A DNA stretch of 64,000 nucleotides from Vreelandella titanicae BH1 (GTDB lineage Bacteria; Pseudomonadota; Gammaproteobacteria; Pseudomonadales; Halomonadaceae). The notes beneath the pieces are model-generated. The model was given only the letters and a program-made list of their open reading frames with translations. It was not told where the DNA came from and made no database searches. Shown here one piece after another: positions 2,496 through 9,008 of the stretch. Each line of letters starts with the position of its first letter. Positions within the stretch are counted from its first letter, which is position 1. Where the stretch lies: the NCBI RefSeq assembly GCF_000336575.1, contig NZ_AOPO01000002.1, forward strand, positions 496,006 to 560,005, given 5' to 3'. The position numbers were made by a program, and so were the translations under genes.

Positions 2496-3245
2496 TTATT
2501 GCCTTAGCTCAAGCTGGTCAAAGTACGGTTTCAAACGGCTTACCAGCGCATTCATCTGAGCTGTAGATGGAGTATTGGCAACTGGCTGAGAATAGGTGGG
2601 ATCGAAGCATTGCTCGCTGCGGGCCACCTGCAGCGCATAGTGGCGTACCCCACAGTCGGCAAGACTCAGTGCCAGGCGTTCCACATCGGTAAGCTGAAAA
2701 TCTTTCCAGTGAATGGTGGTACGGCACTCGAAATTGAGTCCGCTGTCGAGCAAAGCCTCCAAGCTACGGGCATGCAACTGCCAGATGCCGGGACGGCCGC
2801 AGATGCGGTCAAACTCTTTTCCGCGTCCTTTTACATCCAGCCCCACCCAGTCAAGGTGCGGTAATAGCTGGGTGAGGCGGTCAGGATAAGGGCCGGCGGT
2901 ATGTAGTCCCACCTTAAAGCCCAATGCTTTCACTTCCTTTACTGCATCGGACAAACCGGCATTCAGGGTGGGCTCACCACCGCTGAAAACCACCGCTTCC
3001 AGCAGGCCTTGCCTGGTGCTCAGGAATTCCCGTATCGCTTGCCACTCCTGGGGTTCACCTCGGCGCGACGGGATCATGTTGGGATTGTGGCAGTAGCCGC
3101 AGCGTAGCGGGCAGCCTTGGAGAAAGACAACACACGCCAGATGATCGGGATAATCCAGTGTGGTCATGGGCACAAGGCCGGCAGTCGGCAGCCGAACCGA
3201 AGATAATTTAGTTGTGATGTCGTCAAGTGTCGTCTGCATAGCCAT
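2496..3245 (-). CDS. nrdG: Anaerobic ribonucleotide reductase activase (radical SAM)
   Basis: A 249-residue radical SAM protein. It generates the glycyl radical on class III ribonucleotide reductase using S-adenosylmethionine and a [4Fe-4S] cluster. The cluster motif is CPLRCGYC, with cysteines at 45, 49 and 52. FSGGEPTLN is the SAM-contact GGEP motif. This length and the split partner gene point to the longer activase type rather than the short E. coli NrdG. GGGGGA about nine bases ahead supports the ATG at 3245. It follows the glycyl-radical peptide gene by 70 bases and is probably cotranscribed with nrdD. Confidence 0.9.
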   Translation of the reverse strand: MAMQTTLDDITTKLSSVRLPTAGLVPMTTLDYPDHLACVVFLQGCPLRCGYCHNPNMIPSRRGEPQEWQAIREFLSTRQGLLEAVVFSGGEPTLNAGLSDAVKEVKALGFKVGLHTAGPYPDRLTQLLPHLDWVGLDVKGRGKEFDRICGRPGIWQLHARSLEALLDSGLNFECRTTIHWKDFQLTDVERLALSLADCGVRHYALQVARSEQCFDPTYSQPVANTPSTAQMNALVSRLKPYFDQLELRQ

Positions 3246-3315: not shown

Positions 3316-3480
3316 CTACCGAGAGGCGGCGGCTTCAGTAAAATGGCGTCGCTCCTGGTGTTCGGCACGTTTGCCGATATTGAACTGACTTACCGGGCGG
3401 TGGTAGCCCATGACGCGGGTCCAGACTTCGCAGCGCTGGCGCTGCTCAGTGGGCAAGCTAGCATATTGAGAGGTTTGCAT
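3316..3480 (-). CDS. Separately encoded glycyl-radical C-terminal segment of NrdD
   Basis: A 54-residue peptide. RCEVWTRVMGYHRPVSQFN (residues 16-34) and the following IGKRAEHQERRHF match the extreme C-terminus of class III ribonucleotide reductases. The radical-bearing glycine is Gly25 in RVMGY. It lies in the -1 frame relative to nrdD and begins 44 bases after the nrdD stop. AAGGAA sits about nine bases before its own ATG, so it looks independently translated. The open frame continues upstream to 3582, but that part overlaps nrdD and reads as noise. Either the reductase works as two polypeptides or a whole gene has been split; the good ribosome-binding site favours the first. Confidence 0.8.
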   Translation of the reverse strand: MQTSQYASLPTEQRQRCEVWTRVMGYHRPVSQFNIGKRAEHQERRHFTEAAASR

Positions 3481-3524
3481 TAGCGTGTTCCTTAAACGAG
3501 TTGAGAAAAAGTGAGGCAAATGCC

Positions 3525-5267
3525 TCAAGCCGTGGCGGCGTCGATTGCGCTCGCCGTTTTTGCCCAAAGTGCTTCGTCGCACTTGGGGCAGAACTCATGT
3601 TCACCCGACAGGTAGCCATGCACCGGGCAGATCGAAAAGGTGGGTGTGACTGTGAGGTAGGGTAAGCGAAAGTGAGAGAGCGCCGTTTTAACCAGCTTGC
3701 GACAGGCGGTGGCCGAGGTAATCCGTTCGCGCATATAGAGATGCAATACCGTGCCACCGGTATAGCGAGTCTGTAAGGGGTCTTGATGGCTCAGTGCCTC
3801 AAAGGGATCATCGGTATGATCCACCGGCAATTGGCTGGAATTGGTGTAGTAGGGCGCCTCGGGTGTACCGGCCTGAAGAATGTCAGGAAAGCGAGTCAGA
3901 TCCTCCCGGGCAAAGCGGTGAGTGGTGCCCTCTGCAGGAGTAGCTTCAAGGTTATACATATGGCCGGTCTGTTCTTGAAATTCGCGCATCCGCTCCCGGA
4001 CGTGGTCAAGAAGATCCAGCGCCAGCTGCAGCCCTTGGGCGTCGGCTATATCGCAGCGATCCCCAGTAAAGTTGCGCACCATTTCGTTAAGCCCATTCAC
4101 ACCCAGAGTAGAGAAATGATTACGTAACGTGCCCAGGTAGCGCTGGGTAAAGGGGTAGAGCCCCTGATCCATTAGTTGCTGAATGCGCTCGCGCTTGAGT
4201 TCGAGGCTATCGCGCCCGAGCGACAGTAGGCGATCCAGCTCGCTGAACAGCCCGGCCCGGTCGCCGGCAAAGCGGTAACCCAGCCGGGCGCAGTTGATCG
4301 TCACTACTCCCAACGATCCGGTTTGCTCCGCGCTGCCGAACAGACCGTTGCCGCGTTTGAGCAGTTCACTTAAATCAAGCTGCAGGCGGCAGCACATGGA
4401 GCGCACCATGTGGGGTTCCAGATCCGAATTTAGAAAGTTTTGAAAGTAGGGCAGGCCGTACTTGGCGGTCAGTGCGAAGAGCCGCTCGGCGTTGTCGCTT
4501 TCCCAGTCGAAATCATGGGTGATGTTATAAGTGGGTATCGGGAAGGTGAACACACGCCCGTGGCGATCCCCGGCCTCCATCACTTCCAAATAGGCCCGGT
4601 TGATTAAGTCCATTTCAACCTGTAGTTCGCCGTAACTGAACGGCTGCTCCTCTCCACCGATAACCGGTGCCTGTTGGCGCAAGTCGTCGGGGCAAACCCA
4701 GTCGAAGGTTAGGTTGGTGAAGGGCGTCTGACTACCCCAGCGCGAAGGTACATTGAGATTGTAGATGAATTCCTGAAGCGCCTGCTTAACCTGCGCGTAG
4801 GTCAGGCCGTCCTTGCGTACGTAGGGTGCCAGATAGGTATCGAAAGAGCTGAAGGCTTGTGCCCCGGCCCACTCGTTCTGCAAGGTGCCAAGAAAATTAA
4901 CCATTTGCCCGAGGGCACTTGAAAGGTGGCGGGGCGGGTGGCTTTCCGCCCGTCCCGGCACCCCATTGAATCCCTCTAAAAGCAAAGTACGTAGCGACCA
5001 GCCGGCGCAATAGCCGCACAGCATATCCAGGTCGTGAATATGCAAATCACCTTCCCTATGAGCTTCCCCCACGGCGTGGGGGTAAATCTCATCGAGCCAG
5101 TAGTTGGCTATCAACTTGCCTGAGACGTTGAGGATTAAACCGCCCAATGAATACCCCTGGTTGGCATTGGCGTGAACACGCCAGTCGGCGCGTTGGAGGT
5201 ACTCATTGACCGTCGAGGCGACGTCAATATGATGCTTTGCTACCTGAACGCTTGTGGAGCTTTTCAC
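3525..5267 (-). CDS. nrdD: Anaerobic (class III) ribonucleoside-triphosphate reductase, large part
   Basis: A 580-residue protein that reduces ribonucleoside triphosphates to dNTPs without oxygen. The active-site cysteine contexts are visible (MLCGYCAGWS and MVRSMCCRLQ). A zinc-site ending follows at residues 547-563: CPVH, then CPKC. The frame stops 17 residues after the last zinc cysteine, before the glycyl-radical loop, which is encoded by the next small gene. The usual N-terminal ATP-cone is absent, so dATP inhibition may be missing. GTG at 5276 is possible; GTG at 5267 is preferred because AGGTGA lies five bases before it. An Anr box and paired NrdR-like boxes lie upstream. Confidence 0.88.
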   Translation of the reverse strand: MKSSTSVQVAKHHIDVASTVNEYLQRADWRVHANANQGYSLGGLILNVSGKLIANYWLDEIYPHAVGEAHREGDLHIHDLDMLCGYCAGWSLRTLLLEGFNGVPGRAESHPPRHLSSALGQMVNFLGTLQNEWAGAQAFSSFDTYLAPYVRKDGLTYAQVKQALQEFIYNLNVPSRWGSQTPFTNLTFDWVCPDDLRQQAPVIGGEEQPFSYGELQVEMDLINRAYLEVMEAGDRHGRVFTFPIPTYNITHDFDWESDNAERLFALTAKYGLPYFQNFLNSDLEPHMVRSMCCRLQLDLSELLKRGNGLFGSAEQTGSLGVVTINCARLGYRFAGDRAGLFSELDRLLSLGRDSLELKRERIQQLMDQGLYPFTQRYLGTLRNHFSTLGVNGLNEMVRNFTGDRCDIADAQGLQLALDLLDHVRERMREFQEQTGHMYNLEATPAEGTTHRFAREDLTRFPDILQAGTPEAPYYTNSSQLPVDHTDDPFEALSHQDPLQTRYTGGTVLHLYMRERITSATACRKLVKTALSHFRLPYLTVTPTFSICPVHGYLSGEHEFCPKCDEALWAKTASAIDAATA

Positions 5268-5273
5268 CCAATT

Positions 5274-5320
5274 CACCTATATATGCTAGATTTAATAAAA
5301 ATAAATACTATATGTGGTGT
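5274..5320 (-). promoter_or_regulatory. Candidate NrdR box pair at the nrdD promoter
   Basis: On the minus strand ACACCACATATAGTAT (5305-5320) matches the NrdR box acaCwAtATaTwGtgt at 13 of 16 positions. A second, weaker site at 5274-5289 keeps the eight-base core ATATATAG and abuts the start codon. The centres are 31 bases apart, the usual spacing of NrdR box pairs. NrdR is the dATP/ATP-sensing repressor of ribonucleotide reductase genes; its own gene is not in this window. Confidence 0.55.
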
Positions 5321-5351: not shown

Positions 5352-5365
5352 ATGATCCAGGTCAA
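5352..5365 (-). promoter_or_regulatory. Anr/FNR box upstream of nrdD
   Basis: On the minus strand this reads TTGAC-CTGG-ATCAT, matching TTGAY-N4-RTCAA at 9 of 10 positions. With the centre at 5358.5 a class II promoter would start near 5317, and a TACCCT -10-like hexamer lies at 5324-5329. This fits oxygen-controlled expression of nrdD and nrdG. Confidence 0.7.
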
Positions 5366-5413: not shown

Positions 5414-6361
5414 TTAGCCAATCATCGTGCGGGTGTTATCCATACCCGGTCGGCCATACCAGTAACCGTCGCAGATTTCAGCATCCACCAGCGCCAAAGG
5501 ATCGGGCGTAGCTAACCTGCCGTGGCGGGCCTGGTCGAAAGCCGTGACCACCTCGGCCATGCCTTCCGCCCGTGGGCTGAGACGCGCCACTGATACCCCC
5601 ATATCCGCCATGCACGTCAGTTCATGGCGCAGATCCTGGCAGGCGCTGGAAAGGGTTTGAATACCGTTCAGGGTAAAAACATCCCGGGACTCTTGTGAAC
5701 GTAGCACCAAGCCTTCGGGGTATTTTTGGCAGACGAACTTGCAGCGGTCTTTGGGTGTTTGGTGACGCCGGGCGGTAAAACAGCGTGACGACCAGGCCAA
5801 GGGGAGATGCCCGTAGGCGAATACTTCGCATGGGTGGGGAACGCCTGCCTGGTGGCAATCGTTAATAAGCTTGGCTAAGTCTTGCTGTGACATTTCCACC
5901 GGGGCTTGCCAACGCCGCATGCCGGCACGGGCCATAACGCCCAGTGTCGCCGGGTTGTAGAGGTTGAGCGCAGCACCGGCGATAAACGGCAGTCCGGCAC
6001 TGGAGAGGCGCTGCAGGGCACTTTGGTCATTGGCCTCGACGATAAAATCACCGTTGTCACACAGCTTGCGCAAGTCACGCAAGTCGGCTTCGGACTCGAT
6101 CAAGGTCTGGCTGGCGAGTACCACCTGCTTGCCCGCCTGGGTGAGCTCGCGCCCAATGCCTAGCCAGTCGTCCAGTTTCATATCGCGGCGCCGCGAGCAG
6201 ACGGTTTCGCCCAGGGTTATAATCTCTACCGGCCAGTCGGCCGCCTCGCGGTAGAAGTCGGCGTAGCGTTGCCGAGTCCAGTAAAAAAGCACCGGCCCGA
6301 GGGAGAGTTGCAGAGGGCCGGTTGATAAGGTCGGTGATAGGGGAGGTGTAGTGTTCGGCAT
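5414..6361 (-). CDS. ubiV: Oxygen-independent ubiquinone hydroxylation protein UbiV (U32 family)
   Basis: A 315-residue U32-family protein. With UbiU it supports the hydroxylation steps of ubiquinone synthesis without oxygen. Four cysteines at 55, 194, 207 and 211 have the spacing of the [4Fe-4S] ligands of E. coli UbiV (39, 180, 193, 197); the contexts are GETVCSRRR, SSRCFTARR and DRCKFVC. A TAGGAG ribosome-binding site precedes the ATG, which comes nine bases after the ubiU stop, so the two are one operon. ubiT, which often accompanies them, is not adjacent. Annotation as a peptidase, common for U32 proteins, would be misleading. Confidence 0.92.
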   Translation of the reverse strand: MPNTTPPLSPTLSTGPLQLSLGPVLFYWTRQRYADFYREAADWPVEIITLGETVCSRRRDMKLDDWLGIGRELTQAGKQVVLASQTLIESEADLRDLRKLCDNGDFIVEANDQSALQRLSSAGLPFIAGAALNLYNPATLGVMARAGMRRWQAPVEMSQQDLAKLINDCHQAGVPHPCEVFAYGHLPLAWSSRCFTARRHQTPKDRCKFVCQKYPEGLVLRSQESRDVFTLNGIQTLSSACQDLRHELTCMADMGVSVARLSPRAEGMAEVVTAFDQARHGRLATPDPLALVDAEICDGYWYGRPGMDNTRTMIG

Positions 6362-6370
6362 AGTAGGCTC

Positions 6371-7366
6371 CTATTTCCAGCGGCGCTCGTAGGCGCCTAG
6401 GGTAGTGATGGCACCTTCGGAAAGCTCGGCAAGGCCTGCCATCCAGGCGGGTTCTGGATCAAAGCGCTCAGGCTGAGCCTCTAGGCGGTTGAGCGCCTGA
6501 CGCCAGATCCCGGCCACTTTAGAGACATAGGCGGGGCTGCGCTGACGACCTTCAATTTTGACGGCGCTAATACCCAGGTCGCGTAGTTCCGGCAATAGCT
6601 CCAGAGTATTGAGGCTGGTGGGTTCCTCAATGGCGTGATAGGTCTCGCCCGTTACCTCGAAGCGACCCTTGCATAGGGTGGGGTAGCCTGCGCGCTCGCC
6701 TTCGGCGTAGCGGTCGATAAGAACATTGTTAAGGCGTGACTCTAAGCCCTCAGGCGTTTCTTCCCAGCGGACATGAGCCGCTGGCGAGCAGACGCCCCGG
6801 GTATTGGGCGATTCGCCGGTCAGGTAGGAGGAGAGATAGCAGCGTCCTTCGGCCATGATGCACAGGCTGCCGAAAGCGAACACCTCCAGTTCTACCGGTG
6901 TTTGCTTGGCCAGGTCGCGTACCTGAGTGATTGACAGCACCCGTGGAAGTACGGCGCGCTTGATGCCGAAATGCTGGTGGTAAAAGCGTAGCGCTTCATG
7001 GCTGGTCGCCGAACCCTGCACTGAAAGGTGCCGCGAGATCTCGGGGTGATGGCGAGTCGCGTAGTCGAGCAGTCCCATATCGGCGAGAATCAGCGCATCC
7101 ACGCCCAGTTCGGCGGCCTGATCCACGGCCCGAGTCCAGTGTTCCCAGCCATCGGGCTGGGGATAGGTATTAATGGCGCAAAAAACGCGTTTGCCATGTC
7201 GGTGGGCGTAATCGATCCCCTCGCGGGCACGTTTGTCGGTAAAGTTTAGCCCGGCGAATTGCCGTGCGTTGGTGATGTTCTGGAAGCCAAAATAGATGGC
7301 GTCGGCACCTTCATCTACAGCGCGCTTTAGGGCGGGCAGGTTGCCAGCGGGACATACAAGCTCCAT
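6371..7366 (-). CDS. ubiU: Oxygen-independent ubiquinone hydroxylation protein UbiU (U32 family)
   Basis: A 331-residue U32-family protein opening with MELVCPAGNLPALKRAVD. Cysteines 169, 176, 193 and 232 fall at exactly the positions of the [4Fe-4S] ligands of E. coli UbiU. It forms a complex with UbiV that hydroxylates the quinone ring under anoxia. It is the first gene of ubiUV, transcribed away from hemN. A shared Anr box lies 59 bases upstream, with a TAAAAT -10 element at 7397-7402, exactly where a class II promoter needs it. Confidence 0.93.
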   Translation of the reverse strand: MELVCPAGNLPALKRAVDEGADAIYFGFQNITNARQFAGLNFTDKRAREGIDYAHRHGKRVFCAINTYPQPDGWEHWTRAVDQAAELGVDALILADMGLLDYATRHHPEISRHLSVQGSATSHEALRFYHQHFGIKRAVLPRVLSITQVRDLAKQTPVELEVFAFGSLCIMAEGRCYLSSYLTGESPNTRGVCSPAAHVRWEETPEGLESRLNNVLIDRYAEGERAGYPTLCKGRFEVTGETYHAIEEPTSLNTLELLPELRDLGISAVKIEGRQRSPAYVSKVAGIWRQALNRLEAQPERFDPEPAWMAGLAELSEGAITTLGAYERRWK

Positions 7367-7622: not shown

Positions 7623-9008
7623 ATGCAAGATAAACTGCTCTTCAATCGTCCCCTGGTAGAGAAATATGACCGCCCAGGCCCGCGGTACACTTCTTATCCC
7701 ACTGCGCCCCAGTTTCATGCCGCGTTTGCCGAGGATGATTACCGTAGCGCCGCCGAGCGCAGTAATCGGGTCGCAGTACCCAAGCCGCTTTCGGTCTATG
7801 TGCATATCCCGTTCTGCAAAAGCCTTTGCTACTACTGCGCCTGCAACAAAATCATTACTCATAATACCGAGCGAGCTGCCGAATACCTCCAGTGGTTAAA
7901 ACAGGAGATACGTGTTCAGGGAGCGCTGTTCGATACCACCCGCCAAATGACCCAACTGCATCTGGGCGGCGGCACCCCAACCTACTTAAGCAATGCCCAG
8001 CTACGCGAACTGATGGCGGCGCTGGACGAAGCCTTTCACTTCGCCGCACCTGAAGAGCGTGAATTCTCGCTGGAGGTAGACCCTCGCACCGTGACACCCG
8101 AACAGGTGTACGAGCTCTACGCGCTGGGCTTCAATCGGTTGAGCTTCGGTGTGCAGGATTTCGATCACGACGTGCAGCAAGCTGTCAATCGCGTCCAGAG
8201 CGAAGAGCAGGTGGTATCCCTGGTCAAGGCTGCCCGCGAGGCGGGGTTTGAATCGGTCAGCGTTGACCTGATCTACGGTTTACCGCTGCAGACAGTGGCG
8301 AGTTTCGATACGACGCTAACCAAGATTATTGACCTGCAACCGGATCGCATTGCCGCTTATAGCTACGCCCATCTGCCCGAACTGTTTAAAGCTCAGCGGC
8401 TAATTCGCCCCGAAGACATGCCGCCACCCGAGCGCAAGCTGGAGCTGCTGGAGCTTACGATTAACCGCCTGACGTCTGCAGGATATGTCTACATCGGCAT
8501 GGATCACTTCGCCCTTCCGAATGACGAGCTGAGCCTGGCCCGTGAAAATGGCACTCTGCAGCGCAATTTTCAGGGCTACTCTACCCACGCCGACTGCGAC
8601 ATGATTGGGCTGGGCATTACTTCGATTGGCAAGGTGGGCGATACCTACAGCCAAAACGTCAAGGAAACTGCCCAGTATCAGCATCGTTTGGATGAAGGGC
8701 GTTTACCGGTCTTCCGTGGCTATCGCCTTAGCGATGACGACCGCCTGCGCCGCGATGTCATTAATACCCTGATGTGTCACGGCCGACTTGAATTTTCCGC
8801 TATTGAAGCCCGGCACAATGTCGATTTTCGCAGCTACTTCGCGAGTGCCTTGGCGAGCCTCGAAGAGATGGCGGACGACGGGTTAATTGCTTTGCGCGAC
8901 CATGAAATCGAGGTGCTGCCTTCAGGGAGGTTGATGATCCGCAACCTGGCCATGGCGTTCGACGCCTACCTGAAACCAACGGAAAACCGTTATTCGCGCA
9001 CGGTGTAA
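7623..9008 (+). CDS. hemN: Oxygen-independent coproporphyrinogen III dehydrogenase
   Basis: A 461-residue radical SAM enzyme that converts coproporphyrinogen III to protoporphyrinogen IX without oxygen, giving haem for anaerobic respiration. The cluster motif is HIPFCKSLCYYCACNK, with cysteines at 65, 69, 72 and 74. The RPGPRYTSYPTAPQF opening and GGGTPTYL are typical of true HemN rather than the HemW-type relatives. It is divergent from ubiUV and shares an Anr box with it. narG begins 174 bases downstream on the same strand and may be partly served by readthrough. Confidence 0.95.
   Translation: MQDKLLFNRPLVEKYDRPGPRYTSYPTAPQFHAAFAEDDYRSAAERSNRVAVPKPLSVYVHIPFCKSLCYYCACNKIITHNTERAAEYLQWLKQEIRVQGALFDTTRQMTQLHLGGGTPTYLSNAQLRELMAALDEAFHFAAPEEREFSLEVDPRTVTPEQVYELYALGFNRLSFGVQDFDHDVQQAVNRVQSEEQVVSLVKAAREAGFESVSVDLIYGLPLQTVASFDTTLTKIIDLQPDRIAAYSYAHLPELFKAQRLIRPEDMPPPERKLELLELTINRLTSAGYVYIGMDHFALPNDELSLARENGTLQRNFQGYSTHADCDMIGLGITSIGKVGDTYSQNVKETAQYQHRLDEGRLPVFRGYRLSDDDRLRRDVINTLMCHGRLEFSAIEARHNVDFRSYFASALASLEEMADDGLIALRDHEIEVLPSGRLMIRNLAMAFDAYLKPTENRYSRTV

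Follow-up and report, generated by a model that had tools for sequence, protein, structure and literature searches.

Where does a class III (anaerobic) ribonucleotide reductase carry its radical glycine if the gene for its catalytic chain stops before that residue is reached? The question is raised by the nrdD locus of Vreelandella titanicae BH1, on the minus strand of a stretch of 64,000 nucleotides (contig NZ_AOPO01000002.1, positions 496,006 to 560,005; hereafter "the window", whose own numbering is used throughout). Here, the loop with the radical glycine is encoded by a small gene that follows the gene for NrdD. The two are separate, conserved genes, under purifying selection and without a fixed frame or spacing relative to each other. 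It is highly probable that together they specify a two-subunit class III reductase with its radical glycine on a separate mini-subunit of 54 residues, and the feature is real, conserved, and most likely functional as such an enzyme.

The gene pair in the window

The large gene, nrdD, spans positions 3525..5267 of the minus strand and encodes 580 residues when read from the GTG at 5267, or 583 from the GTG at 5276. Its product comprises the catalytic barrel and a zinc knuckle, has neither an ATP-cone nor the radical glycine, and ends at the stop codon 3527-3525 with the C-terminus ...CPVHGYLSGEHEFCPKCDEALWAKTASAIDAATA. The small gene (3316..3480, minus strand) runs over 54 codons from an ATG at 3480 to a stop at 3316, in a different frame from the large open reading frame (ORF), as read in the sequence, and behind a spacer of 44 nucleotides (3481-3524). 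It carries RVMGYHRPVSQFNIGK, and its 6.4-kDa product of 54 residues contains the loop RVMGYHRP, in which the radical glycine is G25 of the peptide. A Shine-Dalgarno-like AAGGAA, likewise read in the sequence, lies 5′ of it at 3488-3493 of the minus strand; this element is kept in all seven closest genus members, and three further relatives have one of the AGGAG type. An earlier note on this DNA had proposed just this layout, i.e., a NrdD ending directly after its zinc site and an RVMGY loop encoded 44 bases downstream in another frame with its own AAGGAA and ATG, and both parts of that description are borne out.

Both proteins match a single Pfam model, NRDD (family PF13597), in complementary parts and above the curated cut-off: the large one over model positions 2-528 of 562 (E = 3e-173), the small one over positions 531-562 of 562 (E = 1.8e-8), with positions 529-530 falling between the two matches. 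Because of this complementarity, the small ORF is more than a chance reading frame. NRDD is moreover the sole Pfam match of the small peptide at E up to 1, and the large protein scores 449.8 bits against the class III NrdD model TIGR02487 (cut-off 326.35); no second NrdD match was found in the window's genome. Since the large chain lacks the radical glycine loop, which has a gene of its own, the enzyme represents a split form and not a single-chain NrdD. The central proposal of the earlier note, a real split with the radical-glycine loop on a separate small protein, thus appears sound on sequence evidence, given the complementary matches and the split in relatives described below.

C547, H550, C560, and C563 are invariant in an 18-sequence alignment of large chains, and we infer that they serve as the C-terminal zinc ligands. 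The NCBIfam model PRK08270 matches the window NrdD over positions 93-657 of 684, leaving the first part of the model unmatched; positions 1-92 of that model are the ATP-cone, so the window NrdD lacks the N-terminal cone, and regulation of its activity by deoxyadenosine triphosphate should differ. Its genus relatives likewise lack the cone, and 23 of 125 large chains have an open frame of less than 640 residues.

The position of the chain break can be viewed against a natural fused homologue, from genome G277, where the zinc knuckle is directly joined to the glycine loop (CPTCGEKTEVWTRVMGYHRP). In split large chains, 10-39 residues (median 16) follow the CPxC motif, which was found in 111 of the 113 split loci compared (near relatives included), and split small chains start with a variable leader that leads into ERQxCEVWTRVMGYHRP. 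An AlphaFold2 model of the G277 protein, built from a 38-row alignment (mean predicted local distance difference test score, pLDDT, of 85; predicted template modeling score, pTM, of 0.80), contains a strand at 673-678 and the radical Gly680, with the zinc-knuckle Cys668 before them, and has its best Foldseek matches in the class III reductases of P. copri and S. thermophilus. Judged by this model, the chain break would fall in a short link between two structural elements.

Cysteines stand out on both sides of the break. The one located eight residues before the radical glycine is kept in 113/113 split loci and in 76/80 viral loci (see below). We rejected the idea that this small-chain cysteine, which precedes E-[VI]-W, is a hallmark of split loci, as it also occurs in locus L025 and in five fused loci nested among the split ones. 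The freed NrdD tail has two or more cysteines in 13 of 111 split loci, often as CC (e.g., L085, L107, L123, and L163), and in the genus of G551 (L395-L407) NrdD ends in CC-rich tails. Such tails recall the redox cysteine pair at the C-terminus of class I/II reductases.

Distribution of the two-gene form

How widespread is the split? Within the window's genus, 8 of 36 other genomes match NrdD; 7 of these and the window's own genome carry both pieces, and all 8 copies with both parts are split. In one genus member (G024, locus L018), nrdD is present only in its first part, which lies close to the end of a contig; this copy may have decayed or been cut off by the assembly. An even sample of 369 genomes across the class gave 38 matches, with 28 split, 7 fused (G070, G111, G152, G277, G308, G317, and G384, where G317 was called from a one-frame match alone), and 3 fragments that were not callable. 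Accordingly, 28/35 classifiable genomes are split, with the frames read in all 28. A phylum survey, which has several genomes in common with the class survey, gave 57 matches in 398 genomes: 13 split, 43 with one full-length frame (fused), and 1 uncalled, the E. coli-type NrdDs being fused. For another genus of the same order, the one to which G551 belongs, 14 of 25 genomes gave a match, and frame reading showed every one of the 14 to be split. Four genomes (G008, G411, G323, and G551) for which the search reports one long frame covering both parts were rejected as fused upon finding a stop between the parts, and G614 was rejected as lacking the small gene, since it has RSMGFIRP, which our motif was too strict to find.

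Among 80 named loci, the closest of 592, the nearest named relative belongs to Billgrantia montanilacus (Halomonadaceae), and split loci come from Gamma-, Beta-, and Alphaproteobacteria, including named Pseudomonas loci (L102, L107, L109, L111, L112, L120, and L123); further split sources are bins labeled Acidobacteria, Omnitrophota, Elusimicrobia, Thermoflexus, and Actinobacteria, labels that may be wrong. Plasmids of Cupriavidus necator (pHG1), Sulfuricystis, and Bradyrhizobium carry a large and a small gene as well, annotated as "ribonucleoside triphosphate reductase" and "nrdD", so both genes are already named in RefSeq; the large gene of pHG1 encodes 676 residues. Siedow and colleagues reportedly found in 1999 that anaerobic growth of Alcaligenes eutrophus H16 depends on nrdD and nrdG of pHG1, with a NrdD of 76.2 kDa, a mass in keeping with those 676 residues. 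The earlier note had suggested aligning the locus across Halomonadaceae and Pseudomonas; split loci are present in the genus, class, and phylum samples and among the named Pseudomonas loci, and its guess that similar split annotations may exist in related genomes proved right, with 8/8 in the genus and the plasmid gene pairs. The two-gene form is common, mostly the rule in this NrdD subfamily, and no peculiarity of the window's genome. One relative is unusual in another respect: the NrdD of G191 (L091, G191:C2:195825-198362) lies in an open frame of 1021 residues in which the family match is broken near profile position 157, perhaps by an intein.

The small gene is also placed with its activase. 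On the minus strand of the window, the order is large gene, small gene, and then nrdG (2496..3245), which encodes a radical S-adenosylmethionine (SAM) activase of the NrdG2 type with 249 residues (TIGR02495, E = 5.2e-60, 202.1 bits, cut-off 131.15). In 110/113 split loci, nrdG lies 3′ of the small gene. For the 103 loci where its start could be located, that start overlaps the small gene in 41 and lies within 30 nucleotides of it in 26, at 31-150 nucleotides in 30, and farther away in 6.

Radical pieces in viruses

The most surprising part of the finding is that the radical piece also occurs alone, in viruses. Genome G323 contains a second small gene on another contig (L081:2303-2491, contig C3), between RecT and SSB genes, on a 60.9-kb contig that also encodes a YqaJ recombinase, an O-like replication protein, an exonuclease V, and an aerobic or B12-type reductase; the 60,000 bases searched contained neither a NrdD body nor NrdG. 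Scanning IMG/VR with the small-subunit alignment yielded 184 relatives, the best 80 of which were kept (L177-L256). In 79 of these 80 loci the NrdD body is absent from the fetched stretch, and NrdG was seen in none of the 80. We searched 42 of the 80 records, chosen for their longer contigs, over their whole length (14.7-108 kb), and 41 of them hold the radical piece (in two cases just below the Pfam cut-off) without NrdD body, NrdG2-family activase, or other reductase. A class I/II reductase barrel was found in none of the 42, and the only record with matches to the NrdG2 model, weak ones, is G815, which also holds the body. As viral records are fragments, absence of the body is no proof for each individual virus. 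As a control, viral loci with an E. coli-type radical domain also hold the catalytic body in 63/63 cases; because they come from different viruses, the control demonstrates that a body is detected where one exists, not that all else is equal. The contrast between 1/80 split-type and 63/63 E. coli-type viral loci with a body is strong.

The copies that stand alone in viruses are members of the split-type subfamily. In 57/80, a start preceded by a Shine-Dalgarno sequence lies 13-56 residues before the loop, and one group of six distinct sequences has a ratio of nonsynonymous to synonymous polymorphism (pN/pS) of 0.115. Their neighbors include terminase, portal, DNA polymerase, endolysin, and replication genes; among 20 neighbors scanned, 18 gave a PHROG match and 2 gave none. 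A phage family labeled "unknown function", phrog_4132, is matched by the small protein of the window, by three of the viral ones, and by the phage copy of G323; it would gain a concrete hypothesis if the radical indeed sits on a detachable mini-subunit. The small peptide found only 2 matches among INPHARED phages, both weak. Of 72 viral loci that do have a large chain, 40 are fused and 1 is probably so, while the radical piece is separate in 19 and 12 are uncalled. As a side observation, 10/80 viral pieces (L177, L182, L186, L188, L190, L191, L222, L229, L233, and L244), some of them near-identical, have a cysteine-rich N-terminal stretch before the loop, perhaps a zinc domain of their own.

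By analogy with GrcA/YfiD for pyruvate formate-lyase, a viral mini-subunit that travels alone suggests an exchangeable "spare part". We regard as evenly balanced the further-reaching idea that the radical piece is an exchangeable cofactor protein, and that phages bring this piece of ~45-100 residues, without body, NrdG2-family activase, or reductase, to take over or re-activate the host NrdD and so secure deoxynucleoside triphosphates under low or changing oxygen.

Rival readings, genomic setting, and known systems

Could the two pieces still be one gene, translated by programmed frameshifting or stop-codon readthrough into a single NrdD chain? That the window pieces are only 44 nucleotides apart and in different frames speaks for such a reading, as do the loci where both parts share a frame with a stop between them (L005, L015, L050, L395, L398, L401, L402, and L406). 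Over the 113 split loci, however, the distance from the stop to RVMGY ranges from 31 to 397 nucleotides, the frame remainder is 1 in 43, 2 in 39, and 0 in 31, and the conserved frame relation with a fixed overlap that marks programmed frameshifting was not found. All three remainders occur within one genus, that of G551 (14 genomes), and sister genomes in the window's genus differ by a single base in the spacer (47 versus 46 nucleotides, stop codon counted), while the small gene has its own start and Shine-Dalgarno sequence. In G714, the small gene lies directly before a NrdG-like gene (44% identity to the window's over 188 residues), ~9 kb from the large gene and with opposite-strand ORFs between them; together with the stand-alone viral pieces, this refutes a single chain, unless those are non-functional. 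Assembly or sequencing error, or a decaying pseudogene, is even less credible: a one-base change could in principle join the frames in a single genome, but 28/35 classifiable class genomes are split, as are RefSeq plasmids such as pHG1 of Cupriavidus necator, the stop remains even in the in-frame cases, and the small gene has a pooled pN/pS of 0.098 over seven genus members, indicating purifying selection. The earlier note, which had taken the conservation of all parts as an argument against decay, is upheld by this ratio and by how common the split is among relatives. Of the two outcomes it had named as fatal, a single-base sequencing error is excluded because many independent genomes share the split and spacers differ by one base within the genus, and fusion in all close relatives did not appear, the genus copies with both parts being split throughout and the class copies in 28/35 cases. 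As the split is shared, frame and spacing are free, the genes lie apart in G714, and selection is purifying, we take error, decay, readthrough, and frameshifting to be excluded, with only a minute residual chance left.

It is quite unlikely, although less remote than the foregoing, that the large chain works alone and the small protein has another role, e.g., as radical carrier for another glycyl radical enzyme. Viruses do hold the small gene without the large one, and GrcA/YfiD is a small protein that serves an enzyme encoded elsewhere. Against this, the NRDD match of the large chain stops before the glycine loop, the small peptide matches no other Pfam family at E up to 1, 110/113 split loci have nrdG behind the small gene, and the viral stand-alones are of the split-type subfamily, whereas E. 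coli-type viral copies come with a body. A rival with a real chance, though we lean away from it, is that the split is a neutral accident and that large and small chain stay bound for good, as an equivalent of the fused enzyme. In its favor, the split clade includes nested fused members, three of which keep [RE]QPCE in the linker, and these suggest that joining and splitting are tolerated; persistence over a broad bacterial range, the frequent overlap with nrdG, and viruses that take only the small piece suggest exchange, without proving it.

The phylogeny bears on this last rival. A tree built from 125 large chains, of which 114 are split and 10 fused (one, L088, was uncalled at that stage and later found to be split), needs 4 state changes, while its starred branches force only 1, and the long branches of L047, L089, and L088 make its deep part unsure. 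Five of the nested fused proteins (from two Maricaulis, Actinotalea, Cellulomonas, and a Desulfovibrio bin) keep the cysteine, three of the five with RQPCE or EQPCE within the linker, and look like later re-fusions; the sixth, that of G277, has TEVW in place of the cysteine motif.

Several points weigh against a functional two-subunit enzyme with an exchangeable radical chain. Since six fused members (L095, L127, L155, L157, L172, and L175) nest inside the split clade, the split is reversible and may lack functional consequences, and the tree forces neither a single origin nor a given number of re-fusions. The AlphaFold2 model depicts a fused relative and not the complex of large and small chain. 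The named loci, being the closest 80 of 592, are biased to split forms, which the class survey is not, and plasmid records of Acidiphilium, Acidithiobacillus, and Actinomyces oris are probably fused, the small match lying under the large-gene annotation. A detachable radical chain would limit the loss to oxygen to 6.4 kDa, but the repair step is hypothetical and the exchange putative.

In the two-subunit enzyme that we favor, the large chain would provide the barrel, the thiyl-radical cysteine, and the zinc knuckle, and the small chain would dock into that barrel via the contacts that the tethered domain makes in fused relatives, as homology and the model suggest. By homology, NrdG would make the glycyl radical on the NrdD-bound small chain, and the radical would then move to the active-site cysteine, just as it does when all parts are on a single chain. 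Oxygen cleaves the class III backbone through the glycyl radical, according to the accessible parts of PMC2795772 and PMC12288474. Class III reductases have been treated as single chains, in which such a cut costs the whole enzyme along with its radical glycine; in the split form, an oxygen-cut chain could give way to a new 6-kDa piece, with no need to make the entire enzyme anew. If so, cheap repair after oxygen exposure becomes directly testable, and radical transfer could be followed after combining two purified components, the smaller of which is within reach of chemical synthesis.

Regarding the genomic setting, a terminator-like hairpin (TGAGGCATTTGCCTCA, 3512..3527, minus strand) overlaps the large-gene stop and is followed by CTTTTT. 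Its fold z-score is only -1.54, and a simple stem search over the split loci returned 4 terminator-like cases, 3 of which are this identical hairpin with its T-rich tail, in the window's genome and two sisters (L009 and L010), and the fourth a different hairpin in L003; we thus rejected it as a conserved attenuator. Upstream of nrdD, an Anr/FNR-like box, TTGACCTGGATCAT, was read at 5352..5365 of the minus strand; the Anr/FNR consensus is TTGATnnnnATCAA. The stretches 5414-7366 and 7623-9008, which adjoin nrdD, hold two Peptidase_U32 genes, presumably UbiU/UbiV-like, and a HemN-type radical SAM gene; we read these as an anaerobic-metabolism cluster, and similar-looking ORFs occur in G714. An NnrS family gene and an Rrf2-type regulator gene (27-1253 and 1930-2448) flank the reductase cluster, pointing to a link with nitric oxide or denitrification. 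For comparison, the Dnr box in the nrdD promoter of P. aeruginosa PAO1 reads CTGACGCAGATCAA in the accessible part of PMC5645315, which also reports a rescue of growth in P. aeruginosa mutants by the nrdDG region.

How does the split enzyme relate to systems already described? The portions available of PMC9669993, PMC4390871, PMC9531940, PMC2795772, PMC11226230, PMC8365446, PMC8683613, PMC4860495, PMC5645315, PMC3653736, and PMC12288474 describe no class III enzyme split at the radical domain, and the literature searched, which covered few subscription papers, gave no description of a split class III enzyme or of a stand-alone class III radical domain. As far as that literature goes, what has been missing is the description as a split enzyme; the gene pair is already in annotation. 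Single-chain NrdD, known from the structures of phage T4, Thermotoga maritima, Prevotella copri, and Streptococcus thermophilus, shares with the window's chains the NRDD family over both of them, the succession of zinc knuckle and glycine loop, and an adjacent radical-SAM activase. It differs in that the window chain is interrupted after the zinc knuckle and before the glycine loop, with a new tail at either side of the gap, that the radical glycine has its own gene, and that the window protein also lacks the ATP-cone. The closest solved relatives are 4coi and 4u3e by sequence, to which the small-subunit profile matches weakly (E 0.37-0.38), and 8p23 by the fold of the fused homologue. The earlier note had called the locus unlike the textbook single chain; this is true in comparison with the enzymes of solved structure found here, but the two-gene form is common and not peculiar to this genome.

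Other split reductases are of a different kind. The accessible parts of PMC9669993 and PMC4860495 describe NrdJa/NrdJb of Pseudomonas aeruginosa, a class II reductase split into two chains; it differs in being of the cobalamin-dependent class, in its break point, and in having no glycyl radical. Phage reductase genes can be split by introns, inteins, or homing endonucleases, and phage nrdD genes are split in 6 cases, by introns, inteins, or fragmentation, according to the portion available of PMC3653736, whereas the split bacterial NrdD keeps a constant break position in the protein across many bacteria. Another parallel is that of GrcA/YfiD and of T4 Y06I, which serve pyruvate formate-lyase and are likewise small separate proteins with a glycyl-radical loop. 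The window peptide differs from these in that it gave no Pfam match at E up to 1 to Gly_radical, the glycyl-radical family of pyruvate formate-lyase. In the accessible part of PMC8683613, the spare-part logic is described for YfiD and pyruvate formate-lyase, Y06I is phage-borne, like the viral small pieces here, and YfiD and Y06I are the only validated spare parts, with the remark that further ones may serve other glycyl radical enzymes. The small chain of NrdD would be a candidate spare part for a class III reductase, with one difference: GrcA repairs an enzyme that has its own radical domain, whereas the host enzyme of the split NrdD has none.

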